A DNA stretch of 64,000 bases from Gammaproteobacteria bacterium (GTDB lineage Bacteria; Pseudomonadota; Gammaproteobacteria; Steroidobacterales; GCA-2729495). This document shows positions 27,533-50,852 of this stretch, piece after piece. A program made the translations under genes and the position numbers. The notes beneath the pieces are model-generated. The model saw only the letters and a list, made by a program, of their open reading frames with translations. It had not been told where the DNA came from and ran no database searches. Location: positions 1 through 64,000 of the forward strand of contig JAJFJS010000051.1 of the NCBI GenBank assembly GCA_021773815.1, read 5' to 3'. Within the stretch, counting starts at the first letter, position 1. The number at the start of each line of letters is the position of its first letter.

Positions 27533-28078
27533 CTATTCGAATTCCTTCAGTAACTCATCGAGTTCGATGGCCATCGTCTCGACGAAAATCGCGCCGTCCT
27601 CGTCAATCTCCAGTTGTGTAATGCCCGGGTCATTCTCCTCGAGTTGATCCAGGACCGACGACTGCTTCTGGTATTCCTGCAGTAACTTGCGGCTCTTTTC
27701 CGCCAGCTTCTTGTGCTGCAGACCCTGGCGGATGGCAGCGGCGAGTTCGTCACCGTTGCACGGCTTGGTGAAATAGCGATACACCTCGCCGCCGTTGATT
27801 GCGCGGATGGCCGTGTCCAGACCGGCCTGTCCGGTCAGGATCATACGGATCGTCTGCGGGTAGAGCTTGCGGACCTCCGTCAGGAACATCGAGCCGCTCA
27901 TCTCCGGCATCTGCTCGTCCGAAATGACAACATCGATTTCATTCTCGGCCAGAACCTTCAGTCCGTCGCGAGCGGAATTGGCCGTGAAGATATCCCATGG
28001 CTCGAGCCCCAGCGTACGCGTCAGGCCGGCCGTGATGTTTGGCTCGTCGTCTACCAGCAGAACTCTTCCTTCGCTCAT
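27533..28078 (-). CDS. Response regulator with a short acidic C-terminal region
   Basis: A 181-residue protein. Receiver domain at 1-125 with acidic pocket Asp10/Asp11, phosphoacceptor Asp54 (VVISDEQMPEM), Thr82 and Lys105 (FTKPC). The remaining 55 residues include a coiled-coil-like stretch (LAEKSRKLLQEYQKQ) and an acidic end. I recognise no output domain. It is the last gene of the minus-strand signalling run, 37 bp after the previous regulator. A role in phosphotransfer or protein-protein regulation is possible. Confidence 0.85.
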   Translation of the reverse strand: MSEGRVLLVDDEPNITAGLTRTLGLEPWDIFTANSARDGLKVLAENEIDVVISDEQMPEMSGSMFLTEVRKLYPQTIRMILTGQAGLDTAIRAINGGEVYRYFTKPCNGDELAAAIRQGLQHKKLAEKSRKLLQEYQKQSSVLDQLEENDPGITQLEIDEDGAIFVETMAIELDELLKEFE

Positions 28079-28115
28079 GATTCGACCTCCCGGTCCCTAT
28101 GTCTGGTTGTCGCGT

Positions 28116-29261
28116 TCAGTGGATCTGCGGGTTTGCCGGCACGCTAACGCGTATCGGCTCGTTGATCCCGATGCCCCGCGCGAAGTTGGCCAGCCGCGCA
28201 ATATGCGCCGCGTGCAGTTCCTCGCCCTTGTTGATGACGACCGTGTCTTTTTTCGTGCGCACGTCCTCGTCGAGCACCATGCCGGCCCGGAGTTGCTCGA
28301 CCGGCAGCGCCTTGATGGTCTGGGTCTGCTCGTGTGCCTTGAAATCGGTCAGCGCATTGAGCAGTGCCGGTTCCAGCCCGCCTTTCTCCTTGAGTTGTGC
28401 GACGGCGATGCCGACCTTCGTGCCGGTCGCGACCAGACGGTCCACGGCGAGCGCGACGTGCAGCATCTGCCCGCCGAGCCGTTCATCGGGCGCCGCATCG
28501 GCATCCGCCGTGCCGCGCTGATTCCGGATCATCGCGGCGACCGCTTCCAGCCGGGGGATGTGTGCGAGCAGTTTGTGGCCGATTTCGGGGTGTTCGTCGA
28601 ACATTTGCCGCTCGTCGTCAGAAATGGCTTGCCCGGTATAGACCTTGCCCAAAGTTTCCGACGGCATCGTGATGCAGCCGAGTTGCGACAGCATTGCCGC
28701 CATCTCGTATTGCCATTGATCCTCGACGCCGAGGCGTTGGGCCATGTGCGCCACGTAAGCCTTGATCTGCCCGGCGCGGCTGAACGCGATCGGCGAGGTC
28801 AGGCTCAGAATCTCGGTCAGTACCTTGATCGAGCCCTTCAGCGTGTTTTCCAGCAGGTCCCGTTCCGCGGTGATCAGCCGGTATTGTTCGGCTGCCGTCT
28901 CCAGCGAGTGCAGCAGCGTTTCCTGCGGACAGGGTTTGCACAGGAACCGGAAGATATTGCCCTCGTTTACCGCCGCAATGGCGCTGTCGAGTTCGGTCTG
29001 GCCGGTCAGCAGAATTCGCACCGTGTGGGGATAATCGTGTCGCACCCGCGACAGGAAGGCGGCGCCGTCCATCTCGGGCATGCGCATATCGGAAACAACG
29101 ACGGCGAACGGGCCGTCCGACTCGAGTACTTCCAGTCCGGCCGCGCCACCGCCCGCCGTGAAGACCTCGAAATGCTCGAACAGGGTGCGTTCCAGCCCCG
29201 CGAGTACATTGGCCTCGTCGTCGACGCACAGCACCCGGCGACCACCATTGCCATCGGACAT
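28116..29261 (-). CDS. Response regulator with degenerate HD-GYP-like output domain
   Basis: A 381-residue protein. Receiver at about 8-130 (phosphoacceptor Asp58 in VVVSDMRMPEMDG, Lys in FLCKPCP). After a helical linker, residues 155-270 follow the HD-GYP pattern, but HDIGK reads SQLGC and HHE reads NQR, so the metal-binding residues needed for c-di-GMP hydrolysis are absent. A small C-terminal domain follows (about 300-370, LRAGMVLDEDVRTKKDTVVINKGEEL), of the type found after some HD-GYP and receiver proteins. Probably a binding or scaffold output. It lies 27 bp after the HDOD regulator. Confidence 0.82.
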   Translation of the reverse strand: MSDGNGGRRVLCVDDEANVLAGLERTLFEHFEVFTAGGGAAGLEVLESDGPFAVVVSDMRMPEMDGAAFLSRVRHDYPHTVRILLTGQTELDSAIAAVNEGNIFRFLCKPCPQETLLHSLETAAEQYRLITAERDLLENTLKGSIKVLTEILSLTSPIAFSRAGQIKAYVAHMAQRLGVEDQWQYEMAAMLSQLGCITMPSETLGKVYTGQAISDDERQMFDEHPEIGHKLLAHIPRLEAVAAMIRNQRGTADADAAPDERLGGQMLHVALAVDRLVATGTKVGIAVAQLKEKGGLEPALLNALTDFKAHEQTQTIKALPVEQLRAGMVLDEDVRTKKDTVVINKGEELHAAHIARLANFARGIGINEPIRVSVPANPQIH

Positions 29262-29288
29262 CCGTTCAGTCTCCCAGTTCGCCCCGGC

Positions 29289-30449
29289 TCAGGCCGCGGC
29301 GAGTTCGTTCGCTTTCTCGCGCCATGTCTCGACCTGATCCTGCACGCCGAGCGTGCCGAGATAATTCATGTCCATATCGGCATCGTTCGCGAGGCAGTCG
29401 GCAACATACACGGCTTCGAGAATGCCGAATGCGTCGCGCCCAGGCACCCGCATCGGCTCGTGGTGATTGGCAATCGCCTCGACGATCGGGTACGGCAGGC
29501 CCCAGATACCCATTAAATATGCCCCAATTTCTGCGTGTGAAATGCCGATCAGTCGACGTTCGGCGACGTGCATCGGTATCCCCTCACACTGCGCCATTGA
29601 TTGCGCCTCCGAGAATTTCTCGGGCAGTTCCTTCGCGAGCACGAGTTTGCCGACGTCATGGAGAATCGCCGCCATGAAGGCGTCCTCGGACAAGGCCCGG
29701 TCGGTCAGCAGGCTTTTCGCAATGGCGGCCGTATGCAGAGCATGCTGCTGTGCCGCCTCGATCGAGAAGCCCGAAATGACCTGGTCCGACCCGGATTCCC
29801 GGAATACTTCGATGGTCAACGCCAGGTTCTTGACCATCTGGAATCCGAGCCGGACCACGGCCTGTTCAATCGACGAGATCGTCGTCGCCTGGCTGAAAAA
29901 AGCGGAATTGACGAGTTGCAGGACCTTGGCCGACATCGCGACATCCTGACCGACAATCTTCGCGATCACTTTCGCATCGGTCGTCTCGTCGCCCAGCGCG
30001 CGCGTCAGCGCGGCGAAGACGCGCGGCACTGACGGTAGTGACTCGATCGTGCCGACGGTCCGGCGCACGGCCTCGTCTTCGAGCAGGGTCCGCAGGCTGC
30101 AGGCGCGGTCGACGACGCTTTTCAACAGGTCCGCCTTGCAGGGCTTGGACAGAAACTGGTGCGCGACCGGCACGGCCCGCAACACCGCTTCCAGTTCGGC
30201 GTGTCCCGACAGCACGATCCGGACGATGCCGGGGTATTGCGCCTGTATCTTGCCCAGTAACGTCGCGCCGTCCATGCCCGGCATACGCATGTCGGAGACG
30301 ATGACATCCACCGGATCCTTTTCGATTTCCGCGAGCGCCTCGGCGCCGCTCGTCACGAAGCGCATGTCCCACTCGTCGGACAGGAAAAAGAGCATGCGCT
30401 CGATGCCCTCCAGGATCTTGGGCTCATCATCAACGAACATGACTTTCAT
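29289..30449 (-). CDS. Response regulator with HDOD output domain
   Basis: A 386-residue protein. Receiver at 1-120 (Asp7/Asp8, phosphoacceptor Asp53 in VIVSDMRMPGMD, Lys in FLSKPCK). The HDOD domain spans about 130-340 (SLPSVPRVFAALTRALGD, QLVNSAFFSQ, AILHDVGKLVLAKELP). HDOD domains are regulatory relatives of HD domains and have been linked to signalling and motility control, with no agreed activity. Its ATG overlaps the stop of the MHYT kinase (ATGA), so the kinase and this regulator are translationally coupled and likely partners. Confidence 0.88.
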   Translation of the reverse strand: MKVMFVDDEPKILEGIERMLFFLSDEWDMRFVTSGAEALAEIEKDPVDVIVSDMRMPGMDGATLLGKIQAQYPGIVRIVLSGHAELEAVLRAVPVAHQFLSKPCKADLLKSVVDRACSLRTLLEDEAVRRTVGTIESLPSVPRVFAALTRALGDETTDAKVIAKIVGQDVAMSAKVLQLVNSAFFSQATTISSIEQAVVRLGFQMVKNLALTIEVFRESGSDQVISGFSIEAAQQHALHTAAIAKSLLTDRALSEDAFMAAILHDVGKLVLAKELPEKFSEAQSMAQCEGIPMHVAERRLIGISHAEIGAYLMGIWGLPYPIVEAIANHHEPMRVPGRDAFGILEAVYVADCLANDADMDMNYLGTLGVQDQVETWREKANELAAA

Positions 30450-33358
30450 GCGGCTTCCTTCGTGTGTTCAGCTTCGGTGGGCGCCTGCAGCGGCAGGCGG
30501 ATGATGAATGTGGTGCCTTCGCCGGGGGCGGACTCGACGTCGATGGTGCCGCCGTGCTTCTCGACGATGACGTTATAGGCAATGGCCAGTCCCTGACCGG
30601 TCCCCTTGCCGACTTCCTTGGTCGTGAAGAACGCGTCGAAAATGTGTGCGCGCACGTCTGCGCTCATGCCGGCGCCGGAGTCGCCGATGCGGATTTCGGC
30701 GCAGTCGTCGGCGTGGCGGGTCGTGACCATGATCTGACCGCGACCGTCGGCGCCGTCGCCGACGACGTCGGAGATGGCGTGGGCGGCGTTGACGATGATG
30801 TTCAGGATCACCTGGTTGAACTCGCCGGGCAGACACGGCACGAGCGGCAGCGATTCATCAAACTCGGTGTGCATTTCGGCGACGTACTTCCACTCGCTGC
30901 GGGCCACCGTAATCGTGCTTTGAATTGCGCGGTTCAGGTCGAGGTCGGTTTTGTCCTGGGCCGGATGCGAGAACTCCTTCATGGCGCTGACAATCCGGCT
31001 GACCTGTTCGAGGCCTTCAAGCGACTGCTCGAATGCCGGCGGCACCTGCTTCTGCAGAAAATCCAGTTTCGCCTTTTTGAAAGCGACCTCGGCATGTTCG
31101 ATGGCGCCGTGATCTGTGTTGCTGGCGCGAGCGGCGGTCAGCAATTCGTTGCCGGCGGCGACGGCGTCCATGAGGCCGGTAAAAGCGCGCTGCAGGAACA
31201 CGGTGTTGTCGCTGACGTACTGGGTCGGCGTGTTGATCTCGTGGGCGATGCCGGCGGCGAGCCGGCCCATCGATTCGAGCTTTTGCGCCTGGCGCAGCTG
31301 CTGCTCCATCTGGATGCGCTCGGTGACGTCGCGGATCAGCGCGACGTAGTTCGTGATGCGGCCCGACTCGGGGTCGCGGACTGACGAGACCGTGTGCTCC
31401 TCGTCGTGGACACGTCCGTCACGCCGCTCGATGTGCAGGATGCCGGACCAGGTGCCGTCGCTGAGCAGCGCCGCGCGCATCGCGGCGGTGGACTCCGGGT
31501 CCGGGTTTTGCAGGGCGATATCGCGTGGTCGCCGGCCCAGGACTTCCTCGCTGGCAAACGCTGAGTAATTCAGGAACGCCGGGTTCGCGTACTCGATGAC
31601 GCCGGCTGCATCGAGGATCAGGATGCTCTCGGCGGCCGACTCCACGGCTTTCGCCATGCGGCGCAGCCTGGCTTCGGTCGTCTTCCGCTCGATGATGCCC
31701 GCCAGCGTATCGGCGACCGCCGTCAGGAACTGAACTTCGTCGTCCGACCGCTCGTGGCCGTGCGGCAGGTACAGCACAATGACGCCGCGCACCTCGCCCC
31801 GGAACGTGATCGGCACGTTGTAATGGCCGTGCTCGGCCATGCCGTCGAAGCCGATCTCGTGGCGCTCATCGACGCAGCTCGCGTGAATCAGTTGGTTCGA
31901 TTCGGCCGCGCGTCCGCACAGGCACTGACCGAAGCGGATCGTCTTGCACTGCGAACGGATCGGATCGGCGAGGTTGGTGTGGGCGGCGAGATGCAGGGTC
32001 TGGTCCTTGGCGTCGGCCAGAAAGATGCCGCCTTTTTTCTCGATCGCCGCGAACGGCGCGGACAGGATCGCGTGCAGCGCGTGATCCAGCAGCGTCGCCA
32101 GTGGCGTGTCGTTGAGCGCCAGGCTCAGCAGATGCTGGATGATCTGGCCCGTGTGCTGCTTTTGCGCGACGTCCTGCTCCAGCGCGCGTTGCTCGGTTCG
32201 GTCGCGAAACGTCAGGACTGCGCCGACGATGTGGCCGTCACGGGCATGCATCGGTGTGCTGATGTACTCGACCGGGACAGGCGTGCCGTCCTGCCTGGTG
32301 AAGGTTTCGGCGTTGCTGTGTTGTGTTTTGCCATCGTGGAGGCTCGTAGACGTCGGGCAGTCGTCCGGGGCGTAGGCCGTGCCGTCTGCACGGGTCACGC
32401 GCAGTACGTCGTGAATCGGCCGGCCGATCAGCGCCGCCGCGTCCCAGCCCATCATCCGGGCCGCCGCGGGATTGGCGAACGTGGCGCGTCCTTCCGTATC
32501 GAGCCCGCAGATGCCTTCACCGGCAGAGTTCAGGATCAGGTGCAACCGGTCGCGGATGTCGCCGAAGCGCTGGTCGACCACGGTCGTGATCATCACGGCG
32601 CCGAGCAAGATCGCCGACAGCAGGGCCGTGCCGATGGCCAGCGAGGGGTTCGACAGGGCGCTGGCGGGGACGGCGGCGCCGACGCCGGGAATGTAGACCG
32701 TTGCGGCCATCGCCGTGTAGTGCATGCATGCAACCGCGCAGCCCATGACGACGGCGCTTACGAGTTGTGCGATGCCGCTCAATCGTCGCTCGCCGAGGCG
32801 TTGCTTTACCGTGAGTGCCAGCGCGGCCAGCGCGAAGGCGACAACGATGGAGGTCGCGAACAGGGCAGGGTCATAGAGCATGTCGGCATTCATCATCATC
32901 GCGGCCATGCCCGTGTAATGCATGGCGCCGATCCCTGATGCCATGATCAGGGCGGCGATATGGAGCCGGAAGGTGCCCATCCGCGGCGTACTCATCATGT
33001 GTATGACCACGGCGCTGGCGACGATGGCCGGGACCAGCGACAGCAGGGTCGTACCCCAGCCGTAGGTCACGGTAAACGGCAGTGTGAAGGCGAGCATGCC
33101 GATAAAATGCATGGCCCAGATGCCCGAGCCCATCGTGAACGCGCCGGCCGACAGCCAGATGATGCGGGCGACACCGTGAACGGCGGCAGCCACTCGCGTA
33201 GTGGTCAGTAACGTCGCATAGGCGGCGACGATGGCGATCACAAAGGACACGACAACAAGAACCGGATCATAGCTGCCGGCGACGGCGGCACCCAGATCCG
33301 TCGCCGCATCCGTGAACCGGAGGCCATGCGGCGCGTGAGTGGGGAGCGCGAGGTTCAC
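30446..33358 (-). CDS. Sensor histidine kinase: MHYT, PAS, GAF, PAS, HisKA, ATPase
   Basis: A 970-residue membrane kinase. The N-terminal MHYT domain (about 35-245) has the three repeats MHFIGM, MHYTGM and MHYTAM, proposed to bind a metal and sense diatomic gases or redox. PAS (about 265-385), GAF (about 400-555) and a second PAS (about 565-685) follow. The phosphorylated histidine is His706 in AHEINTPTQ. The ATPase part has the N-box NIIVNAAHAI and G-boxes GDSGAGM and GTGQGLAI. The transmitter from about residue 690 is nearly identical to those of the three kinases upstream. No C-terminal receiver is present; the next gene supplies one. Confidence 0.92.
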   Translation of the reverse strand: MNLALPTHAPHGLRFTDAATDLGAAVAGSYDPVLVVVSFVIAIVAAYATLLTTTRVAAAVHGVARIIWLSAGAFTMGSGIWAMHFIGMLAFTLPFTVTYGWGTTLLSLVPAIVASAVVIHMMSTPRMGTFRLHIAALIMASGIGAMHYTGMAAMMMNADMLYDPALFATSIVVAFALAALALTVKQRLGERRLSGIAQLVSAVVMGCAVACMHYTAMAATVYIPGVGAAVPASALSNPSLAIGTALLSAILLGAVMITTVVDQRFGDIRDRLHLILNSAGEGICGLDTEGRATFANPAAARMMGWDAAALIGRPIHDVLRVTRADGTAYAPDDCPTSTSLHDGKTQHSNAETFTRQDGTPVPVEYISTPMHARDGHIVGAVLTFRDRTEQRALEQDVAQKQHTGQIIQHLLSLALNDTPLATLLDHALHAILSAPFAAIEKKGGIFLADAKDQTLHLAAHTNLADPIRSQCKTIRFGQCLCGRAAESNQLIHASCVDERHEIGFDGMAEHGHYNVPITFRGEVRGVIVLYLPHGHERSDDEVQFLTAVADTLAGIIERKTTEARLRRMAKAVESAAESILILDAAGVIEYANPAFLNYSAFASEEVLGRRPRDIALQNPDPESTAAMRAALLSDGTWSGILHIERRDGRVHDEEHTVSSVRDPESGRITNYVALIRDVTERIQMEQQLRQAQKLESMGRLAAGIAHEINTPTQYVSDNTVFLQRAFTGLMDAVAAGNELLTAARASNTDHGAIEHAEVAFKKAKLDFLQKQVPPAFEQSLEGLEQVSRIVSAMKEFSHPAQDKTDLDLNRAIQSTITVARSEWKYVAEMHTEFDESLPLVPCLPGEFNQVILNIIVNAAHAISDVVGDGADGRGQIMVTTRHADDCAEIRIGDSGAGMSADVRAHIFDAFFTTKEVGKGTGQGLAIAYNVIVEKHGGTIDVESAPGEGTTFIIRLPLQAPTEAEHTKEAA

Positions 33359-33431
33359 GCCGCGACTATCCCGGGTGTCGACGTCATCGACTGGCTTGGT
33401 TTGTGTTCATTCATGATGCTGTCCCGATTGG

Positions 33432-33451
33432 TTGGCACAAGATCGTGCCAA
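33432..33451. promoter_or_regulatory. Palindrome TTGGCAC-N6-GTGCCAA upstream of the MHYT kinase
   Basis: A perfect 7+7 inverted repeat lies 74 bp upstream of the kinase start codon and downstream of the MarR-type gene. The same half-site arrangement recurs at 34202-34215 at the start of the MarR-type gene. This spacing is typical of winged-helix dimer operators. The link to the MarR-type protein is an inference. Confidence 0.4.
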
Positions 33452-33509
33452 ATATGGTCGTTGATTAACATCGATTCGTTCACACCGGCCCCGGCCATAT
33501 CTAACCGGT

Positions 33510-34229
33510 TCAGCAACAATATCGGTCATGCGAGCGATGTTCTTGAGCGGTTATGTCACAACATTTGGTGCCAGCATGCGCCAACAGGCCAAATTCGTGC
33601 GCTGTGTCCACATATTGGGGCGCCGACGGGTTAGTTGCGCAAGCGGGATATATGGTTCGGCGGCCTGCCGGGGCAGTTGGCAGGTTGCGATCGCCCGGGG
33701 AACCGCGTAACGGGCCCGTGAACGGGCGGGTGAAAGGCACCGGGAAAGAGCGTGGGGGTGGTGTGTCAGGGCACCCGGGGAATGGCGGTCGGCAAACTCG
33801 CTTGTGTTCAGCCGGCGGCGTGCCGTGGCCGTTGTGCCTGAACAGGGTACGGATGTCGATCGCCAGCATTTCGTCCGGCGCCATGTCGTTCAGCTGCTGG
33901 ATCACGTCGAGGCTGGCGAAATAGATTTGCCGGCCGTTCGTCGTCAACCGCAGCCGCTTGCGGCGTCGGTCAGCGGTCTCGAGCTGAATACTGATCAACC
34001 CGAGGCCATTCGGGATGTCGGACAGCCTGGCGACGGTGCGCGTGGCCGCCGAGCGTGACAAATGGCAGCGCTGGGCGACGCTCGTGATGTCGAGCAGCGC
34101 CTCTTCCCACAACTCCGCGTAGCCGATCTCGAAAAATGCGCCGGCGTGCTGCAGCCCGATGTCGGGCGGCAGGCCGTGGTCGATGACCCGCACCACCACT
34201 CGTGCCAATTTGGCGATTGATTCTGCCAC
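33510..34229 (-). CDS. MarR-type winged-helix regulator with an aberrant C-terminal extension
   Basis: A 239-residue reading frame from a GTG with a GGGGGGG ribosome site 8 bp upstream. Residues 1-120 look like a MarR regulator: a dimerisation helix, then SVAQRCHLSRSAATRTVARLSD (recognition helix region) and a wing (LISIQLETADRRRKRLRLTTNGR). After about residue 130 the sequence turns into a proline-, arginine- and cysteine-rich tail with no domain character, about 105 residues longer than a normal MarR protein. The original stop has probably been lost. It lies between two kinase genes on the same strand. Confidence 0.6.
   Translation of the reverse strand: MAESIAKLARVVVRVIDHGLPPDIGLQHAGAFFEIGYAELWEEALLDITSVAQRCHLSRSAATRTVARLSDIPNGLGLISIQLETADRRRKRLRLTTNGRQIYFASLDVIQQLNDMAPDEMLAIDIRTLFRHNGHGTPPAEHKRVCRPPFPGCPDTPPPRSFPVPFTRPFTGPLRGSPGDRNLPTAPAGRRTIYPACATNPSAPQYVDTAHEFGLLAHAGTKCCDITAQEHRSHDRYCC
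34202..34215. promoter_or_regulatory. Second TTGGC palindrome at the start of the MarR-type gene
   Basis: GTGCCAA-T-TTGGCG overlaps codons 5-9 of the MarR-type gene. It shares the half-site of the palindrome at 33432-33451. It may be an autoregulatory site or simply coding sequence. Confidence 0.3.
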
Positions 34230-34611
34230 GTTCGAACCCCCCCGGATTCCGATCCGTTATTCGCTGCCGCCCAGCATCTGCGCTACGGCGGGACCACGTC
34301 CTGAAGTCCAGATTGTCCGACACGTGCCGTGTATGCACTTACCCGCGGACATCCTGTCCGTGCCGGCATCCGGTCGTATTTTTTCACCGGCATGCCGACT
34401 CCATATGGTCGAAGGAAAAACAAATCTATAGTGCGTTCAACAGGCTAACGGGCGACGGTTGATACTCCCCTTGCCGCGATAATCCCAATGAAGCTACTAA
34501 ATGTGGAACTAAACTCATAAAGCCTACAGTTTTTGTTTGGAGTCGTCAAAGTCTTTCGACGGCCGGTGAATTTTGGTGCGATGGCAGCCTTGCCCGATAC
34601 GGTGAATGCCG
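34230..34611. other. 382-bp gap between the NIT kinase and the MarR-type gene
   Basis: This gap is upstream of the MarR-type gene and downstream of the NIT kinase on the minus strand. It is less GC-rich than its surroundings around 34400-34540 and probably holds the MarR-type promoter, but I see no clear -35/-10 pair. No small gene is apparent. Confidence 0.35.
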
Positions 34612-37050
34612 TCAGGCGGCGCGTTCGCCGGCATCGGCGTCCGTATCGCTGCCGCTGCCGTCGGTCGTAGCGTTGAGCGGCAGGCGCAGGATGAAGGTCG
34701 TGCCCTGGCCGGGTGCGGACTCGACATCGATCGTGCCGCCGTGCTTCTCGACAATGACGTTATAGGCAATGGCCAGTCCCTGGCCGGTGCCCTTGCCGAC
34801 GGCCTTGGTCGTGAAGAACGCGTCGAAGATACGCGCGCGCACGTCCTCGGGCATGCCTGCGCCGGTGTCGCCGATGCGCACCTCGGCGAAGTCGTCGATC
34901 TGCCGGGTCGTAACCGTGATCTGGCCGCGGCCGTCGCCGCCGTCGCCGACGACGTCGGAGATGGCGTGGGCGGCATTGACGATGATGTTCAGGATCACCT
35001 GGTTGAACTCGCCGGGCAGGCACGGCACGAGCGGCAGCGATTCATCGAACTCGGTGTGCATCTCGGCGACGTACTTCCATTCGTTACGGGCCACGGTAAT
35101 CGTGCTCTGGATCGCGCGGTTCAGGTCGAGGCGGGTCTTGTCCTGGGCCGGGTGGGAGAACTCCTTCATGGCGCTGACGATGCGGCTGACCTGCTCAAGC
35201 CCCTCGAGAGACTGCTCGAATGCGGGCGGCACCTGCTTCTGCAGGAAGTCGAGTTTGGCCTTCTTGAACGCGGCCTCGGCGGTGGTGATCGCATCGTCGT
35301 CGACATGGCCGGTGCGGGCGGTCTCAAGCAGCACGTTGCCGGCGGCGACGGCGTCGATGAGGCCGGCAAAGGCGCGCTGCAGGAACACGGTGTTGTCGCT
35401 GACGTACTGGGTCGGGGTGTTGATCTCGTGGGCGATGCCGGCGGCGAGCTGGCCGATCGACTCGAGCTTCTGCGCCTGGCGCAGCTGCCGCTCCATCTGG
35501 ATGCGATCGGTGACGTCGCGGACAATGGAGACGTAATTCGTCACATGGCCGGATTCGGCGTCGCGAATCGGTGACACAGTATGTTCCTCGTCGTGCATGC
35601 GACCGTCACGTCGTTCGATGTGCAGAATGCCGGACCAGGGTTGGCCGGCGGTCATGGCCGCCCGCAACCGCGCAATCTCCTCAGAATCGGAGTCCTGCTT
35701 CGCGATCTCGCCGGGCCGCCGACCGATGATCTCCTCGGCGGTGTATTGGGTGTAGCGCAGGAAGGCGGGGTTGACGTATTCGATGCACGCGTTGGCATCG
35801 AGGATCACGACGCCCTCGGCGGCCGACTCTACCGCTGTTGCGAGACGCTGAAGCGATTGGATTGACTGCCGCAGCTCTGCCTGAGTGTTTTGTAACACGG
35901 ACGCCAGACTTATCTTTTCACACTGGTCGCGGCCCGCGCCCGTCGATGGCCCGGTCACGACCGGATCGCCTCCGATCTTCTTTCCGGCGATCGCTTCGGC
36001 AATCCGGAACAACTCGGCGGGATCTGCGCCGAGTTGCTGCAGGATGCGGCGTGTCATCAGGACTGCGAGCAAGATCACTATCCCGATCAGCGTCAGGATG
36101 ACGACGGCACCGACAGCCAGGCGCGATGACGCCCGGTCGAACGTGGCGATCGCATTCAGCTTGAGATCCGTGGTGAGAATGACCTCGACCTTGCGTAGTT
36201 GATTCAGCTTCTGGGTCTGCATCGCATACCAGGTTTCGGGGTTGATGCGGAAATTGCCGATGGCCGCATTGTTCAACGCTACCCGTCGCATCCTGGCTGT
36301 TTTCTTGAACGACGGGTCCAGCACCAGGTTGCGGTGAATCCCGCGAAATTTTTCATGGGCGTGTTTCTGGAACATCGAAAAGTAAATCGTTTGGGCGGCG
36401 ATCACGGTCCGCAGGTGTTCGTAGGCGCCGGGGTCGAAGCTGTCGTCGGCGAAGATAGTGACCAATATGGCGCGCTCGATCCCCCCGAACTCCTTGGCAT
36501 GGAGGAAGTTCACGAACGACGCCACGTCCTTGTTGAATGTCGTGCTCAACCTCAGCTCCCCGAGCAGGTCGATGATGTCGAGCAATGCCGTGCTCCAGCT
36601 GGAGTAGTATTCAAGGGCTTCCTGCCCCTTGATTTCCCGCGCGAGCACGCTCGCCCGCTGCTTGGCGAGCTTGTCTCTATTGAGGAATGCTGCGGCCATC
36701 CGGTTGCGTAATGTCGCGTCGAAACTTTCGGCGGTGGCGTTGACCCGAATGTCCAGCTCTGCGAGAGCGCGGTCGGTCTTCAGCTTCTGGGCCGGCAGCG
36801 CCGTGTCGAACCAGTCGCCGGCTCCGCTGAGGTATCCGGCGGATAAGCCGCGTTCCTGCTGCAGCTCATGAAGCACGGCGCTGAGATCAGCCGACAGCAC
36901 GGCAAGATCGACCGCGGTGCGACTCTGCGTACGCAGGCTTGACAATGTGCGCATTTCGCTCTGAGCAAACCACAGTAGCCCGAGAATGGGCAGCATCAGC
37001 ATGACGGCCAGTCGGTGGCTGAGTCTTAACGTTGGCAAAGAATGCTTCAT
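34612..37050 (-). CDS. Sensor histidine kinase: NIT domain, PAS, HisKA, ATPase
   Basis: An 812-residue kinase. An N-terminal membrane helix (about 12-27) precedes an all-helical NIT domain (about 45-290, with ELQQERGLSAGYLSG), a fold associated with nitrate/nitrite sensing. A second membrane helix lies near 310-335. One PAS domain (about 400-520, VESAAEGVVILDANACIEYVNPAF) leads to the transmitter with phosphorylated His541 (AHEINTPTQ) and the ATPase motifs. The last 270 residues match the other three kinases almost completely. It lies 89 bp downstream of the dCache kinase on the same strand. The ligand assignment rests on family knowledge only. Confidence 0.9.
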   Translation of the reverse strand: MKHSLPTLRLSHRLAVMLMLPILGLLWFAQSEMRTLSSLRTQSRTAVDLAVLSADLSAVLHELQQERGLSAGYLSGAGDWFDTALPAQKLKTDRALAELDIRVNATAESFDATLRNRMAAAFLNRDKLAKQRASVLAREIKGQEALEYYSSWSTALLDIIDLLGELRLSTTFNKDVASFVNFLHAKEFGGIERAILVTIFADDSFDPGAYEHLRTVIAAQTIYFSMFQKHAHEKFRGIHRNLVLDPSFKKTARMRRVALNNAAIGNFRINPETWYAMQTQKLNQLRKVEVILTTDLKLNAIATFDRASSRLAVGAVVILTLIGIVILLAVLMTRRILQQLGADPAELFRIAEAIAGKKIGGDPVVTGPSTGAGRDQCEKISLASVLQNTQAELRQSIQSLQRLATAVESAAEGVVILDANACIEYVNPAFLRYTQYTAEEIIGRRPGEIAKQDSDSEEIARLRAAMTAGQPWSGILHIERRDGRMHDEEHTVSPIRDAESGHVTNYVSIVRDVTDRIQMERQLRQAQKLESIGQLAAGIAHEINTPTQYVSDNTVFLQRAFAGLIDAVAAGNVLLETARTGHVDDDAITTAEAAFKKAKLDFLQKQVPPAFEQSLEGLEQVSRIVSAMKEFSHPAQDKTRLDLNRAIQSTITVARNEWKYVAEMHTEFDESLPLVPCLPGEFNQVILNIIVNAAHAISDVVGDGGDGRGQITVTTRQIDDFAEVRIGDTGAGMPEDVRARIFDAFFTTKAVGKGTGQGLAIAYNVIVEKHGGTIDVESAPGQGTTFILRLPLNATTDGSGSDTDADAGERAA

Positions 37051-37139
37051 TTGTGTCTCATTCGAGTCAGTAGCTGAATGCTGCCAAAGGGTGCGCGGTG
37101 AGACTTGTGTCCAGGATTGCGTTCATTCCGGTCATCATT

Positions 37140-40084
37140 TCAGGCGGCCCGTTCGCCGGCATCGGTATTGTTGCCGGCATCATCGGTCGTAGCGTTGAGC
37201 GGCAGGCGCAGGATGAAGGTCGTGCCTTCACCGGGTGCGGACTCGACGTCGATCGTGCCGCCGTGCTTCTCGACGATGACGTTGTAGGCAATGGCCAGTC
37301 CCTGGCCGGTGCCCTTGCCGACTTCCTTGGTCGTGAAGAACGCGTCGAAGATCCGCGCGCGCACGTCCTCGCTCATGCCGGCGCCGGTGTCGCCGATGCG
37401 CACCTCGGCGCAGTCGTCGTCGTGGCGGGTCGTGACCGTGATCTGCCCGCGGCCGTCGGCGCCGTCGCCGACGACGTCGGAGATGGCGTGGGCGGCGTTG
37501 ACGATGATGTTCAGGATCACCTGGTTGAACTCGCCGGGCAGGCACGGTACGTGCGGCAGCGATTCATCGAACTCGGTGTGCATCTCGGCGACGTACTTCC
37601 ACTCATTGCGGGCGACAGTAATCGTGCTCTGGATCGCACGGTTCAGGTCGAGGCGGGTCTTGTCCTGGGCCGGATGGGAGAACTCCTTCATGGCGCTGAC
37701 AATGCGGCTGACCTGTTCGAGGCCCTCCAGCGATTGTTCGAACGCTGGCGGTACCTGCTTCTGCAGGAAGTCGAGCTTGGCTTTTTTGAATGCGGCCTCG
37801 GCGTGGGCGATGGCGTCTTCGTTGACGCCGCCGGAACGGGCGGCGTCCAGCAGTTCGTTGCCGGCGGCGACCGCGCCCATGAGGCCGTCGAAGGCGCGCT
37901 GCAGGAACACGGTGTTGTCGCTGACGTACTGGGTCGGGGTGTTGATCTCGTGGGCGATGCCGGCGGCGAGCTGGCCGATCGACTCGAGCTTCTGCGCCTG
38001 GCGCAGCCGCAGCTCCATCGCGCCGCGTTCCTCTTCGGCCCGCTGGCGTTCCGTGATGTCGATAATCATTGCACAGAATACGGGTGGGTTGTCTTCGTCC
38101 ATCAATTGCAGGTGCACCTCGATGGGGTATTGTGTGCCGTCCTTGCGTTGGTGCGTCGTCGTGAAATGCAGCTTGAATTCATCCCCGGTGCGCAATGGTT
38201 CGATCTTTGCGGCAAATGCTTCGTTCGTGAATTCCGGCTTCAGGTCGACGGGAGTCATGCTCTGTAATTCCGCCATCGAGTAGCCGAGGTTTTCCCGGCC
38301 TCCCTCGTTGACGCTGACGAAGCGGAGCGTGTCTGCGTCGAAGATATAGATCTCGTTCAGCGATCCCTCGAGTACCCGGCTGAAGCGCGCGGCTTCCTCC
38401 GCGGTCTTCTTGTTCTGTTCCTCCATCAGGACCCGTTCGGTGATGTCGCGAATCACGACGACGATGCCCGTGACGGCGCCGGCGGCATCCCGAACCGGCG
38501 ACACGGTCGTGTCCTCGAAGGCGTGCGTGCCGTCCCTGGCGACCGTTTTGTAGCGCGTCGAACAGGGCTTGCCGTTCAGCACGGAGTCCCACATGTCCCG
38601 GTATTCCCGGGACGCAGTTTGCTGGTGCCCGAGATCCCAGAGTTGTTTACCGACGACGTCGGCGGCTCGGGAGTTTCTCAACCGCTCGTAGGCGGGATTG
38701 ACGTACCGGTACACACATTCGTTGTCCAGTATTGCGATTGCCTCGATGGCATGTTCGACGGCCGCGGCCAGGTAACGCATTTGTTCTTCGGCCTCGATCC
38801 GGCGCGCAATTTGTCGATGCAGTGTGGTGCGGCGTTTTTCCATCTGCTCGATCAGGCGTCCGAAGGTGCGCGCGAGTGTGCCGATCTCATCGGGTCGGTC
38901 GATCGGCAGCGTCGCTATGGGCTTGCCGGGCGTGTACCCCTCGATCGATCCGGTGATTTCGTTCAGGGGCTTGCAAATAACTGAATCCACAAAGAACAGA
39001 CCGAGCAGCAGCACCGGAATCATGATCAGCACGAGTGTGCCGCCCAGGGGCAGCGCGTTCGCGACGGTGACGGCGATGATGCCGTCGAATTCGGCTTCGC
39101 GCGCGAAATGCAGGGTGCGTTCCTGCCGACCGGCATCGATGACCGCATCGTAGATGCCGAGAATTACGCGCCGACCGTCGGCGTCTTGCAGCATCGCTGC
39201 GCGTCGGCCGTCGGTCGGTGCTGGGAACACCTGATCGTAGCCGGGAAACGCATCCGCAATGTCGTAGGAGCGATCGAATTCAAACGCAAATTCATGGCGT
39301 GTGTCGGGGTGGACGAGAAAGCGCCCGTCCTGATCGAAGACGTACAACGCGCCTTCGGCGCCTGCCGGTCGGCGCAGTCGGTCGAAAACGCTGGTCATGT
39401 CGACATTGACGACGACGATGCCGAACAGTTGGCCGTCAGCGGCATATACTGGCGTCGCTGCCCGCAGCGCCGGCCAGTGGGGTGTTTCGATCTGCCCGTG
39501 CTCGCGATTCCGATCGATTGCGGAGATCAATACGCGGCCCGGCGCCAGTTTGGCGGCATCGGCAACATACGGGCGATCGCCCTTTGCCTGCAGGTGCGCA
39601 TTTTCCGCGACGATGACATCTCGTCCGCGGCGCTCGACACGGACGATTTCCCGGCCATTGTCGTGCAGACCGATCAGGCGAATCTGTCGATACGTCGGTC
39701 GGGCCCGCAGGGTCTCGGTGAAAATCGCCGTGAGTCGGGTGTGCCACAGCGCAGCCGATGAGTTGTCGACAGGATCGAGTCCGCCGTTTCCGTATGCCCG
39801 GCCAGTCCGCCGACGGGCGGCATGTGGGCGAGGGACAGGGCTTCCTGCCGCAGGGATTCGATCATCGCTTCGAATTGCGTGCCGGCAATTTCGGCCGAGT
39901 GCACCGCGTGTTCGCGCTCGGCGGAGATGGATTCTGCGGCCTGATTCGACAGGACGATGACCAGCGCCACGGTGACCGCGGCAATGACCAGCGCCATCAT
40001 GGTGATCGTCATTCGGGCGCGGAGCCCGGTCAGGTGCGATGCCCGCGTCGTCGTGCCTGCCGTCGACTGTTGCGGGTTGCTCAT
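37140..40084 (-). pseudogene. Sensor histidine kinase (dCache, HAMP, PAS, PAS, HisKA, ATPase) split by a frameshift near 39797-39803
   Basis: The start codon at 40084 overlaps the upstream kinase stop (ATGA). The first frame reads the N-terminal membrane helix and early Cache domain up to MPPVGGLA, then loses homology. The rest continues in another frame from RAYGNGGLDPVDNSSAALWHTRL onward, through the Cache domain (QIRLIGLHDNGREIVRVERRG), a membrane helix, HAMP, two PAS domains, HisKA and ATPase. Adding one base within the GGCCGGG run restores a single 981-residue protein with phosphorylated His712. Either the gene is truly broken or the assembly lost one base. The two pieces are 39674-40084 and a large fragment ending at 37140. 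Confidence 0.85.
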
Positions 40085-43000
40085 GCGGCCTTCTCGGCGG
40101 CGCTGCCGTCGGCGTCGTCTGCGGGCGCGGTCAACGGCAGGCGGATAACGAAGGTGGTGCCTGCACCGGGGGCGGACTCGACGTCGATGGTGCCGTCATG
40201 CTTGTCGACGATGACGTTGTAGGCAATGGCCAGGCCCTGGCCGGTGCCCTTGCCGACTTCCTTGGTCGTGAAGAACGCATCGAAGATGCGCGCCCGCACG
40301 TCCTCGCTCATGCCGGCGCCGGTGTCGCCGATGCGGATCTCGGCGTAGTCATCGACATGGCGGGTCGTGACCGTGATCTGGCCGCGGCCGTCGGCGCCGT
40401 CACCGACGACATCGCCGATCGCGTGGGCGGCGTTGACGATGATGTTCAGGATTACCTGGTTAAATTCGCCGGGCAGGCATGGCACGTGCGGCAGCGATTC
40501 ATCGAACTCGGTGTGCATCTCGGCGACGTACTTCCACTCGCTGCTCGCGACGGTGATCGTGCTCTGGATCGCGCGGTTCAGGTCGAGGCCGGTCTTGTCC
40601 TGTGCCGGGTGGGAGAACTCCTTCATGGCGCTGACGATGCGGCTGACCTGTTCGAGGCCTTCCAGCGACTGCTCGAAGGCGGGCGGTACCTGCTTCTGCA
40701 GGAAGTCCAGTTTGGCCTTCTTGAACGCGGCCTCGGCGGTGGTGATCGCATCGTCGTCAACCTGGCCGGTGCGGGCAGTCGCAAGTAGCGCGTTGCCGGC
40801 GGCTACGGCGTCCATGAGACCGGCAAAGGCGCGCTGCAGGAACACGGTGTTGTCGCTGACGTACTGGGTCGGGGTGTTGATCTCGTGGGCGATGCCGGCG
40901 GCGAGCTGGCCGATGGATTCCAGCTTCTGCGCCTGGCGCAGTTGCTGCTCCATCTGGATACGCTCGGTGACGTCGCGAATCACCGAGACATAGTTCGTGA
41001 TGCGGCCCGACGCCGGGTCGCGGATCGGTGAGACCGTCGTCTCTTCGCTATGGAGCCGGCCGTCGGGGCGGCGGATATTCAGGATGCCGGACCAGGTCTC
41101 GCCGCAGGCCATCGCCTCGCGCAGCGCACTAATTTTCTCCGGGTCGGCCTCCGGCGCCGAGATGTCGCTGGCGCGGCGGCCCTGCAATTCCTCGATGGAA
41201 TGCTGCGTGTAACGTAGGAATGCGGGGTTCACGTATTGGATCCGTGATTCGGCATCGAGGATCACGATGCCCTCGGCCGCCGACTCCACGGCCGTTGCGA
41301 GGCGCTGCAGGCGCTCGCGAATCTGTTTCGCGTCGGTGATGTCCTTGATCATGACGCTGAAGAATCTTTCGCTGTCGATTTCGAAGATATCGAATCGCAA
41401 CGCTACCGGGAAAAGGCTGCCGTCCTTGCGCACGGCTTCCGACTCGTTTTCGTGCTTCTGACTGGTATTGCTTCGCTGGCCCGTCTGCAGATAGTGGTCG
41501 ATATTGCTTTTTAACCGGCTCTTCAGTGGCTCGGGCAACAGTATCGATGCGCTCTGCCCGATCGCTTCGTCTTTCGTGTAGCCGAAAATTTCCTCGGCGG
41601 CCGGGTTGAACGACAGTATCGTGCCGTGACTGTCACAGATGACTTGGGCGTCGGCCATGTTGTCGATGACGGCGCGGTAGCGCGCTTCCGCCGCGGCGAT
41701 CGTGTGCAGATCCAGGCGGCGCTGTTCGGCCTGTTCCTCCAGTTGCCGGGAGCGTTGTTCGACCTGTCCCATCATCCGGCCCAGTGCAACGCCCAGCCGG
41801 CCGACCTCGTCGTGGGTCGTGACGGGAATATCCGGCCGCCGTCCGGTCTGACCAAATTCCTGCGCGGCCCGGGCGAGTGTCTGCACGGGTCGGGCGAGGA
41901 GTTGTGCGACGAACCAGCCGATCACTATCGCCAGCGTAAATGTGAGTTGTCCGCTGAGGCGTCGCTGACGACCAATCTCGGCCGCCGGCAGTTCGATGGC
42001 GTCGCGGCTGCGGCTGCTGATAAACAACAGCGGCTGGCGGCTATTGCGGGTATCGCTGCGGTAGATGCCGGCGGCGACTTCCCGGGCGCCGTCGTCGTCG
42101 AGCAAGACGGCGCCGCCGGCGTCGGGGCTTGTTAACTGGCCGATGAGTCCGGGAAATTCCGTGGCGAGCCGGCGCGCGCCGGACGGCGCCGCGCCGTCGG
42201 CGTGGATCAGGAACACCCCGGTGTCATCCACGACATAGCGGCGCGCGTCGTTGTCGGATGCCCCCGTAAGTATATCGGTCACGTCCAGGCGCAGCCGAAA
42301 GACGCCGATGCGCAGACCGTCGTCCGAATACGCGGGCAGCGTGACATCGGCCGTTAGCAACGGTTGCATGTCGTTCCCGTTGGCGGCGCGGGACACGATG
42401 CGGCTCCAGGAAATGCCATCCGGAATATCGCCGCCGGTCAGGTCGATGTCGGACGCGGACGGCGCGTCGTCGACCCCGAGTTGCGCCAGCACTTCGCCGG
42501 ACTCCGCGTCGACGTAACGAATGGCGCGGTACTCCGGATGTGTCACCACCCAGTTCTGCAACAGGCCGGTCAGGCTCAATTGCCAGTGTTCGGCGCTGCC
42601 GCCTTGTTGTTTGTCAAACCCCCCGTCGCGGCGCGCTCGGTACAAGCCTGCGATGGGTCCCGTCGTCGCCAGTGCCAGCAGATCCCGTTCTGCATTCGCC
42701 AGTCGGCGGTCCAATGCCGTACCCGTCGCGCGTGACTCTTCGGCCAGCTGGTCCATGCCAACTTGCAACACCATCTGGTGCATCGTTCGCGAGCTCTGGA
42801 TTGCCGTCGGCGTGACGGCCAGTAAGGCGACGAGGCCGCAGAGGATTGCCGTCTTCGTACCGATGCCCAGCGACATCCCGTGTCTGACCGGCGTTGCTGC
42901 AGCGTCGTTCACCGTCACCGGTGTATCCATCATGAGGGAGAGCACGCAGCCCGTAAGTGCAAGGGCGTAGCTGATCAGTTTGGTCGCATGGGCCGCGTCA

Positions 43001-43719
43001 AACTGCGCGTCGAACGGCGCGGAAGACAGCGGCATGATCAACACGTGGCAAATCAGCCCCGTCAGTATCGACAATATGATCCAGTGCGCGAACACGTTTT
43101 GACGCCATGCGCCGCCGCGCATCGCGCTGATCAGGGCCAGCATAAACACGGCCGCGACGATGAGCTCCTGTGGTCGATGCAGCACCATGCCGGGCACGTA
43201 GCCGCTCGGTAGTGGCGCGTTTTCCAGCGCAAAGATAATGATTGCGGCCACCAGCAACGGGCCGAAGAGCCGGAGCCCAGGGTGTGTTTGGCCGCGCTCG
43301 CCCGCCGTCGCCAGGCGCCGTCGGTCGATACAGCTCAGTAACAGCATTGAGGCGAGGAACAGTCGTGAGGCAAACCAGCTCCACGCGGTGATGTCCACCT
43401 GCGGCGTATCGAATACGCCGGCCAATGCGGGGATCGCGACCAGACCGTGAAAACCGTCGAGCATGCCGGCGCCCAGGAAGCCCGCGGCGATGAGCAGTAT
43501 GCTGGGATGCCGTTGTGCGCGGTAGTAGCGCAGCACGAAGGCGCCGACGATGAATGCCATGACGGCGCTGGTGAGCTCCATGACATTGTGCGTGGCCGAC
43601 GTGCCTTGCCACTCGACCATGTCGAGCGAACTCGGAATCATCAGGCCGCCGAGTAGCAGGCACCAGTAGACGACGGCGCGAGTGCTGGCTGTTTGCTGTA
43701 GCGCTATCGTGTCCTGCAT
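40081..43719 (-). CDS. Sensor histidine kinase: 7TM region, Cache, HAMP, PAS, PAS, HisKA, ATPase
   Basis: A 1212-residue membrane kinase, the first gene of the run. Residues 1-265 contain about seven membrane helices (GFLGAGMLDGFHGL, MASE3-like). A further membrane helix (about 290-310) begins a periplasmic Cache domain (about 320-590), then a membrane helix, HAMP (ARPVQTLARAAQEFG), and PAS domains near 680-800 and 810-925. The transmitter has phosphorylated His945 (AHEINTPTQ) and intact ATPase boxes. Two membrane sensor modules in one kinase is a large input. The stop overlaps the next kinase start. The stimulus is unknown. Confidence 0.9.
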   Translation of the reverse strand: MQDTIALQQTASTRAVVYWCLLLGGLMIPSSLDMVEWQGTSATHNVMELTSAVMAFIVGAFVLRYYRAQRHPSILLIAAGFLGAGMLDGFHGLVAIPALAGVFDTPQVDITAWSWFASRLFLASMLLLSCIDRRRLATAGERGQTHPGLRLFGPLLVAAIIIFALENAPLPSGYVPGMVLHRPQELIVAAVFMLALISAMRGGAWRQNVFAHWIILSILTGLICHVLIMPLSSAPFDAQFDAAHATKLISYALALTGCVLSLMMDTPVTVNDAAATPVRHGMSLGIGTKTAILCGLVALLAVTPTAIQSSRTMHQMVLQVGMDQLAEESRATGTALDRRLANAERDLLALATTGPIAGLYRARRDGGFDKQQGGSAEHWQLSLTGLLQNWVVTHPEYRAIRYVDAESGEVLAQLGVDDAPSASDIDLTGGDIPDGISWSRIVSRAANGNDMQPLLTADVTLPAYSDDGLRIGVFRLRLDVTDILTGASDNDARRYVVDDTGVFLIHADGAAPSGARRLATEFPGLIGQLTSPDAGGAVLLDDDGAREVAAGIYRSDTRNSRQPLLFISSRSRDAIELPAAEIGRQRRLSGQLTFTLAIVIGWFVAQLLARPVQTLARAAQEFGQTGRRPDIPVTTHDEVGRLGVALGRMMGQVEQRSRQLEEQAEQRRLDLHTIAAAEARYRAVIDNMADAQVICDSHGTILSFNPAAEEIFGYTKDEAIGQSASILLPEPLKSRLKSNIDHYLQTGQRSNTSQKHENESEAVRKDGSLFPVALRFDIFEIDSERFFSVMIKDITDAKQIRERLQRLATAVESAAEGIVILDAESRIQYVNPAFLRYTQHSIEELQGRRASDISAPEADPEKISALREAMACGETWSGILNIRRPDGRLHSEETTVSPIRDPASGRITNYVSVIRDVTERIQMEQQLRQAQKLESIGQLAAGIAHEINTPTQYVSDNTVFLQRAFAGLMDAVAAGNALLATARTGQVDDDAITTAEAAFKKAKLDFLQKQVPPAFEQSLEGLEQVSRIVSAMKEFSHPAQDKTGLDLNRAIQSTITVASSEWKYVAEMHTEFDESLPHVPCLPGEFNQVILNIIVNAAHAIGDVVGDGADGRGQITVTTRHVDDYAEIRIGDTGAGMSEDVRARIFDAFFTTKEVGKGTGQGLAIAYNVIVDKHDGTIDVESAPGAGTTFVIRLPLTAPADDADGSAAEKAA

Positions 43720-44515: not shown

Positions 44516-45841
44516 TTGTTGCAAAAGAGAATCAAGGTCGATACGGCCAATTTAGCCCAGGGCATGTACGTGGCCCAGCTTGACCGTTCCTGGCTGGAAA
44601 CGCCGTTCATCAAGCACGGCTTCCAGGTTTCCAGCGAGGATGAAATCGGGTTGCTGCGCAAGTTCTGCAAACACGTGTATGTCGATGTGTCGCAGAGCGA
44701 CGCGTCGGAACAGGATATTCTGCAGGCACACCAGGAGTCCGGCGCTCTCAACGACCCGTTCTCCGCATCGCAGATTCGTCGTCCCATGGTTGCAGCAGGC
44801 AAGCGCCGCGGTCGACTGGGTGGGTTCCTGCGCCGCCTCGCGTCGGGATCGGCCGGTGCCACGGAAGGCGGCAGAACGCCGATACACGTGGAGGCGCCGC
44901 GGGCGATGGAGGCGTACGTCGCCGTCGGCGCGACCATGGAAGACGTGCTGCGCAAAGGAAAGAAAGGGCGCCCGCTGGACATCGAGCCCCTGTATGCGGC
45001 AGTCGCGCCGATGGCTGCGAGTGTGCAGCGCAATCCCGATGCGATGGCCTGGCTCGGATTCGTGCGCAAGCGCGAGCCGGGACATTTCAGTTATACGATC
45101 ACGACCGCGGTCTGGGCGCTGATCATGGGACACGGCATGGGGCTGACCGGCCGCCGGCTGTCGAACCTGGCCGTCGGTGCGCTGTTGCTCGATATCGGCA
45201 ACACGCAGATCCCGAAATCGATCGGCACGAAACCGGGTCCGCTGACGGATGAGGAATACTCGGTCATGCGTATGCATGTCGACTACGGTCTGAAGATCAT
45301 CGGCAAGTCGTCCGGCGTCCCGGACGAAGTCATCCACATGATTCGTTATCACCACGAACGCTTCGACGGCAGTGGTTATCCCGAGGGCCTCAGCGGTGAT
45401 GTGCCGGTCTACGGCCGGATTGCCGGGCTCATCGATTGTTATGACGCGATGATATCGAGGCGGCCCTATGCCGACCCGAAGTGCGCCTATGACGCGGTAC
45501 GGGAGTTGAATCGGCTGGCCGGAAAGAAGTTTCAGCCGGAAGTCGTCGAGCAATTCGTGCGGGCGATCGGCATGTTCCCGACCGGCAGCCTCGTCGAACT
45601 GAACACGGGAGAGATCGCAATCGTCATCGAACAGAACGCGCAGCACCGGCTGCGGCCGAAGTTGCTCGTGATGCTCAATGCCGACCGGCTGCCGGTGCGC
45701 AACAATAAGGTCGTGGATCTGTCGACCCGGCCGGATCGCAGCGACCGGCGCAATGCGCGCTGGATTACCGGGGGCTTCGAGGCCGGGTCGTTCGACATCG
45801 ACCCGAAGGACTACTTCCTGCGCCCCGCGGGCCGCGCATGA
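44516..45841 (+). CDS. DUF3391 HD-GYP-domain protein, partly degenerate
   Basis: A 441-residue protein. The N-terminal DUF3391 domain (1-70, GMYVAQLDRSWLETPF) is followed by a basic linker and an HD-GYP domain (about 170-370). HHERFDGSGYP (279-289) is intact, but the HD pair reads LLLDIGN, with Leu225 in place of the metal-binding histidine. HD-GYP proteins normally hydrolyse c-di-GMP; loss of that histidine makes activity uncertain. The start is a TTG with AGGGAAG upstream. Its stop overlaps the ATG of the EAL gene (ATGA). Confidence 0.85.
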   Translation: MLQKRIKVDTANLAQGMYVAQLDRSWLETPFIKHGFQVSSEDEIGLLRKFCKHVYVDVSQSDASEQDILQAHQESGALNDPFSASQIRRPMVAAGKRRGRLGGFLRRLASGSAGATEGGRTPIHVEAPRAMEAYVAVGATMEDVLRKGKKGRPLDIEPLYAAVAPMAASVQRNPDAMAWLGFVRKREPGHFSYTITTAVWALIMGHGMGLTGRRLSNLAVGALLLDIGNTQIPKSIGTKPGPLTDEEYSVMRMHVDYGLKIIGKSSGVPDEVIHMIRYHHERFDGSGYPEGLSGDVPVYGRIAGLIDCYDAMISRRPYADPKCAYDAVRELNRLAGKKFQPEVVEQFVRAIGMFPTGSLVELNTGEIAIVIEQNAQHRLRPKLLVMLNADRLPVRNNKVVDLSTRPDRSDRRNARWITGGFEAGSFDIDPKDYFLRPAGRA

Positions 45842-47145: not shown

Positions 47146-47660
47146 CAGCGGCCCGGGTCACGCTCGAATTCCCGCATGTCGCAGAGCGGCTGCCCGGATT
47201 ATGTCGCATTGCAGGCGCCGGTTCGTTCGCCGCGACGTCCGCTGCCGGTCAGTGCGGGCGCCGGCTGGCGGGTCCGGCAACCGCTTACATCCGCCCGGCG
47301 CCTGCCGCGCCCGTCATCCATAACTCATTGTTAAAAAACGTATTTAATACCGGTCAGGTTTGAATGCCGGCACTTTTCCCCGGGACTTCGGTCGTATAAT
47401 GGAGCTTCGTCGGACCCGCCTGCCAATGAATGTTGCGCGGCTGTCCGCGAATCCGTCGCCGGAATATGTCGAATACGTTAGTGAGATTGTGACTTCTCTC
47501 ACAGACTTTGCACCGGCCAGAAGCGAGTCTGCATAGCAATTATTTTAAACGCCGACGGAACCAAAAAAAGCCCGTTGGAATTTCAGCCAGAGGAGTTTTC
47601 ACCAGCAAAAAAGAACAACAAAAAGAAATGAGAAATCGCCGCGACCCGAAGGAGATTGAC
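47146..47660. other. 515-bp region upstream of prkA, including a long leader
   Basis: No gene is visible. A perfect TATAAT (47395-47400) lies about 260 bp before the prkA ATG, with no strong -35. If used, the leader would be about 255 nt. It contains a small GTGAGA/TCTCAC hairpin (about 47480-47501) and an A-rich purine stretch before the ribosome site. The preceding part (47146-47340) shows only GC-rich inverted repeats without a clear T-run. Confidence 0.4.
47395..47400 (+). promoter_or_regulatory. Candidate -10 box (TATAAT) for the prkA-yhbH-spoVR operon
   Basis: A consensus -10 in the sequence GTCGTATAATGG. There is no good -35 at 17 bp, which is compatible with a stationary-phase sigma factor, known to drive the related operon in E. 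coli. This is an inference. Confidence 0.35.
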
Positions 47661-49628: not shown

Positions 49629-49643
49629 CGGTCGGCGTTGAAG

Positions 49644-50819: not shown

Positions 50820-50852
50820 CATGGAAAGCATGCCGCGATTCGGGGGTGATGC

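Follow-up and report, generated by a model that had tools for sequence, protein, structure and literature searches.

The minus strand of the 64,000-nucleotide stretch analysed here (the window; contig JAJFJS010000051.1 of a gammaproteobacterial assembly, GTDB order Steroidobacterales) carries at positions 27533-43719 four histidine kinases and three response regulators. From 43719 downward they follow as kinase 1, kinase 2, kinase 3, a gap, kinase 4, a receiver fused to HDOD (REC-HDOD, regulator 1), a receiver fused to a degenerate HD-GYP domain (REC-pseudo-HD-GYP, regulator 2) and a receiver with a short tail (REC-tail, regulator 3). On balance we favour the explanation that a conserved module with locally duplicated kinases pools several sensors on the three regulators, which would act by protein contact and with an output in cyclic di-GMP (c-di-GMP); the window is best read as an enlarged relative of modules like Hno and NosK-NosR. 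According to this explanation, the kinase of a module consisting of kinase, REC-HDOD, REC-pseudo-HD-GYP and REC-tail would have been duplicated locally in the window lineage, each copy gaining a different sensor. Since the regulator-docking helices stayed unchanged while the sensors differ, signals of several sensors would be pooled on the same three regulators. Phosphorylated regulator 2, a pseudo-enzyme, would alter how active a c-di-GMP enzyme is, in the way that HnoD affects the EAL enzyme HnoB; another partner may be the target of regulator 1, while regulator 3 may serve as an adaptor or a phosphate sink.

The transmitters of the four kinases are 86-92% identical pairwise in protein and 85-91% in DNA, and among 55 transmitters they form one clade with support of 99/100 (bootstrap not fully settled). 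At E<=1e-20 the window's genome yielded no further kinase of this type, although 32 HATPase_c matches are present in all. Judged from these sequences, the four are recent in-paralogues. Their pairwise dS amounts to 0.26-0.50 with dN/dS of 0.14-0.19, kinase 2 included, pointing to purifying selection on all four transmitters. As the initial annotation proposed, different sensors stand before this common transmitter, and they belong to different families: MASE3, dCache, HAMP and two PAS domains in kinase 1 (40081-43719, 1212 residues), a Cache-type sensor (PF21623), partial HAMP and PAS in kinase 2, NIT and PAS in kinase 3 (34612-37050, 812 residues), four MHYT, PAS, GAF and PAS in kinase 4 (30446-33358, 970 residues). 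The kinase 2 sensor had initially been called dCache/HAMP; the PAS set of this kinase differs in part from those of the others. With closely similar transmitters and sensors of different families, the four kinases represent one PAS-transmitter cassette that was duplicated and joined to different sensors. Gene conversion as the source of transmitter likeness was rejected, the silent-site run test being not significant (88 sites, p 0.16), and duplication alone therefore suffices. As for the stimuli initially suggested (nitrate/nitrite, gases, small ligands), these were guesses from domain names, for which no ligand evidence was found.

The partner regulator of a kinase is determined by helices 1 and 2 of the DHp domain. 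All four kinases have the same helix 2 (29/29 residues), helix 1 is 88-96% identical among them and the loop joining both 70-93%. With helix 2 unchanged and helix 1 almost so, the kinases would be expected to converge on the linked regulators; such sharing of regulators by the four kinases is likely, and phosphotransfer would proceed from all of them to all three. In two-component signalling a kinase is usually insulated together with a single regulator. The cluster might be a collection of separate, cross-insulated systems, every regulator having a preferred kinase of its own. Such an arrangement has a possible parallel in one related locus (L249, 2458-9350), in which kinase, REC-HDOD, kinase and REC-HD-GYP alternate and the two kinases are 42-48% identical; for the window it seems very improbable, given the identical docking helix and the unequal numbers of kinases and regulators.

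The three regulators follow each other closely, with 27 and 37 bases between successive genes, and none of their outputs contains a DNA-binding domain, in agreement with the initial annotation. Regulator 1 (29289-30449, 386 residues) bears an HDOD domain scoring 177 bits against PF08668 (cut-off 22.9), which retains the HD dyad, as do most orthologues, and resembles the structures of MmoQ. Regulator 2 (28116-29261, 381 residues) shows an HD-GYP fold by profile, with SQ in place of HD and the GYP motif absent, thus lacking both marks of an active HD-GYP phosphodiesterase. As all intact orthologues of regulator 2 in the alignment lack the dyad too, regulator 2 represents a pseudo-enzyme family rather than a product of local decay. 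Regulator 3 (27533-28078, 181 residues) ends in a tail of ~60 residues. The initial annotation was right about the HDOD, the degenerate HD-GYP and the short tail at the regulator ends, but the tail, for which it could give no assignment, is not random sequence, being conserved among orthologues with the motif PGIT..DEDGAI. NosR is the best NCBIfam match of all three receivers, with NosR family (NF053512) scores of 229 bits for regulator 2, 167 for regulator 3 and 131 for regulator 1, none reaching the curated cut-off of 400; by this cut-off regulator 2 lies outside the NosR family.

A genome search for relatives, from which the window's own genome was excluded, returned at least 590 candidate stretches, the tallies below being samples. 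Among 29 loci chosen by the kinase alone, three of which come from one genome (G030), REC-HDOD adjoins the kinase in 20 and REC-HD-GYP is also present in 19. The linkage occurs in Myxococcota, Verrucomicrobiota, Planctomycetota, Acidobacteriota, Thermodesulfobacteriota and Pseudomonadota. Within the window's own order, 49 of 396 genomes yielded a kinase of this family. Of 40 loci taken from there, 20 have REC-HDOD next to the kinase, and several of the rest are interrupted by contig ends. A further REC gene carrying the regulator 3 tail comes next, both in the window's family and in other families belonging to this order. In the window itself a family transmitter immediately precedes REC-HDOD, both being on one strand, and REC-HD-GYP without HD dyad follows. 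Conserved clustering of the kinase with REC-HDOD and REC-pseudo-HD-GYP, for which the initial annotation had proposed to search, is thus found, and by gene order kinase, REC-HDOD, REC-pseudo-HD-GYP and, in part, REC-tail make up an operon conserved across several phyla. Three congeners, with genomes 73-80% complete, gave no kinase of this family; in one congener (L139) HDOD and regulator 3 sit at a contig end, so its kinases may be either absent or unassembled.

Relatives also connect the module with c-di-GMP. REC-GGDEF-EAL occupies the slot of regulator 2 in one locus (L251) and directly follows the kinase in two others (L248 and L258), and REC-GGDEF lies inside the operon in a fourth (L056). 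On plasmid p319 of Vibrio coralliilyticus (L259, NZ_CP009620, 5986-12363), REC-HDOD, REC, CheC, kinase, REC-EAL and REC-pseudo-HD-GYP, the latter having HD changed to HE, form one run followed by Hpt. This run shares with the window REC-HDOD, a related kinase transmitter (39% identical) and REC-pseudo-HD-GYP, with REC-EAL alongside, but it has one kinase without extra sensors, and CheC and Hpt are added. Because of the REC-GGDEF/EAL partners in relatives and the Vibrio plasmid run, the module may be regarded as tied to c-di-GMP, and tuning of this messenger is its likely output. The window's genome gives 17 GGDEF and 11 EAL domain matches.

Kinase 2 is split over two frames in this assembly, with a frameshift near 39785. 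An ATG at 40084 opens an open reading frame (ORF) of 136 codons (39674-40084, minus strand) holding the membrane segment, and the remainder of the sensor together with the kinase lies in a second frame (37140-39794), ending at 37140. The PF21623 match starts in this main frame from ~39740, upstream of its first start codon (39530); therefore the ATGA overlap at 40081, present as initially annotated, links kinase 1 to a broken frame and not to an intact kinase. The break is either a pseudogene or an assembly error, and, since the kinase 2 transmitter is as conserved as the other three, it should be very recent if real. GC content at third codon positions is uneven near the break without pinpointing it, and the assembly consists of 149 contigs. 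The second overlap, ATGA at 30446-30449 joining kinase 4 to regulator 1, was correctly annotated, and this is the only tight junction of a kinase with the regulators. Hence the run of four kinases proposed initially holds for the four transmitters, but not for the frame of kinase 2, and a gap precedes kinase 4; the idea of a signal integrator draws support from in-paralogy and the common helix 2, kinase 4 alone being tightly joined to the regulators.

Several observations weigh against the explanation favoured above. A gap of 1253 bases (33359-34611) parts kinases 1-3 from kinase 4, and these three, 1.25 kb upstream of it, may be transcribed apart. As assembled, at most three kinases are intact, kinase 2 being frameshifted. 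The window's own operon includes no c-di-GMP enzyme. In a congener (L139) regulator 3 comes directly after HDOD with no regulator 2 between them, both at a contig end, and in L140 (4818-5318), from a member of the family that has two kinases, regulator 2 is reduced to REC, its HD-GYP domain being lost; because of these two cases regulator 2 is not indispensable. Concerning the gap, an ORF at 33510-34229 on the minus strand has weak winged-helix (MarR/LysR) likeness under all Pfam cut-offs, and the gap as a remnant of a lost gene was rejected, all Pfam matches there being sub-threshold. A promoter scan gave no promoter-like site, a terminator scan gave fewer terminator-like sites than in shuffles, and an Rfam search of the window produced no match.

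The gap and the frameshift would suit the alternative that the kinases are duplicated but in practice insulated, through expression under different conditions or a different manner of assembling, so that kinase 4 mainly serves the regulators and the others are drifting. That additional kinase copies frequently lie dispersed in other genomes agrees with it too, but drifting copies are hard to reconcile with purifying selection on all four transmitters, kinase 2 among them, and with an unchanged docking helix; we consider this alternative unlikely. Scattering in relatives had been named initially as the finding on which the array idea would fail, and the result is divided: linkage to REC-HDOD and REC-pseudo-HD-GYP is kept, but additional kinases are frequently dispersed, and the divergence within some linked pairs is too great to imply shared partners.

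REC-HDOD is the most constant partner of the kinase, retained where regulator 2 is lost or changed. The output might instead be transcriptional or developmental through HDOD, c-di-GMP being uninvolved. REC-HDOD regulators are known as GsmR in Xanthomonas and DVU0330 in Desulfovibrio (PMC4114195) and as MmoQ in Methylococcus (PMC7994243), their mode of action being unsettled: GsmR is reported for flagellar genes (PMC4114195) and offers a precedent, and MmoQ, to whose structures the HDOD of regulator 1 matches, is proposed for the copper switch (PMC7994243). Like regulator 1, these proteins combine a receiver with HDOD and have a linked kinase, but the publications on them describe no pseudo-HD-GYP partner with several kinases (PMC4114195, PMC7994243). 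Against an HDOD-only output stand the REC-EAL and REC-GGDEF proteins found in the same slot or operon of relatives, the derivation of regulator 2 from HD-GYP, and SadB, another HDOD protein, which has been assayed for binding of c-di-GMP in a pathway using this messenger (PMC6543031). We therefore regard this possibility, too, as improbable.

The closest published design is the nitric oxide network of Shewanella oneidensis, in which two kinases, HnoK and HnoS, address HnoB (REC-EAL), HnoC and HnoD. The last of these, a degenerate HD-GYP protein, holds HnoB back through contact (PMC6335343; also PMC8846402). Hno thus has more than one kinase feeding a regulator set with a degenerate HD-GYP that controls an EAL enzyme (PMC6335343), and the window might correspond, having several kinases with a docking helix in common and a gene for a degenerate HD-GYP regulator. 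Hno differs in having REC-EAL, a DNA-binding regulator and a separate nitric oxide sensor protein; the window has kinase-fused sensors, HDOD and REC-tail regulators and four closely in-paralogous kinases, and a counterpart of HnoB is absent from its operon. No gene for an H-NOX or NosP partner appeared among the window genes scanned, no whole-genome search having been made for one. The likeness to HnoD is taken from its published description. Burkholderia has NosK, a kinase whose phosphorylation target NosR is a degenerate HD-GYP regulator (PMC12570481); this kinase paired with a REC-degenerate-HD-GYP regulator resembles the window, whose receivers match NosR best, but NosR has a single kinase and a separate FIST sensor, and the score of regulator 2 stays below the family cut-off. 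The exact operon was not found in the open-access literature, subscription papers being outside the scope; the initial impression of an undescribed combination thus survives for the operon, but its design has precedents in Hno (PMC6335343) and NosK-NosR (PMC12570481).

Divergent from kinase 1 on the plus strand, a GGDEF-EAL protein is encoded at 45838-47145, with EAL motifs intact, GGDEF degenerate and no REC; it is a possible candidate target of the regulators. Its gene has an ATGA overlap with that of a DUF3391 and HD-GYP protein (44516-45841, plus strand) in which the HD dyad reads LD. A second DUF3391-HD-GYP protein is encoded at 58999-60207 (minus strand), and the PrkA, DUF444 and SpoVR genes stand in a row at 47508-52226 (plus strand), representing the YeaG-YeaH-YcgB set.

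Multiplication of kinases is not confined to the window. Linked pairs of in-paralogues or close copies occur in Acidobacteria (L061), Phaeospirillum (L069) and the window's family (L140); in other linked pairs (L073, L239, L249, L250, L037 and L222) helix 1 is 42-62% identical, and these more diverged kinases, by their sequences, need not share partners. Four kinases in a row were met in this genome only, within the sample, with two-kinase versions elsewhere. Tentatively, and with less confidence than the explanation for the window itself, a plug-in design may be suggested, in which a c-di-GMP output operon around pseudo-HD-GYP repeatedly acquires kinases that arise by local duplication and have their sensors replaced, the docking surface being frozen; the window lineage would then be the extreme case with four inputs, and the three close pairs independent instances. 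If true, such a design would let the number of inputs grow without new output genes. The conserved operon of kinase, REC-HDOD and REC-pseudo-HD-GYP provides a defined family for asking about the roles of HDOD and pseudo-HD-GYP regulators, which are largely unsettled, and four recent kinase copies with unrelated sensors and an identical docking helix beside one regulator set would constitute a clean natural case for many-to-one signalling.

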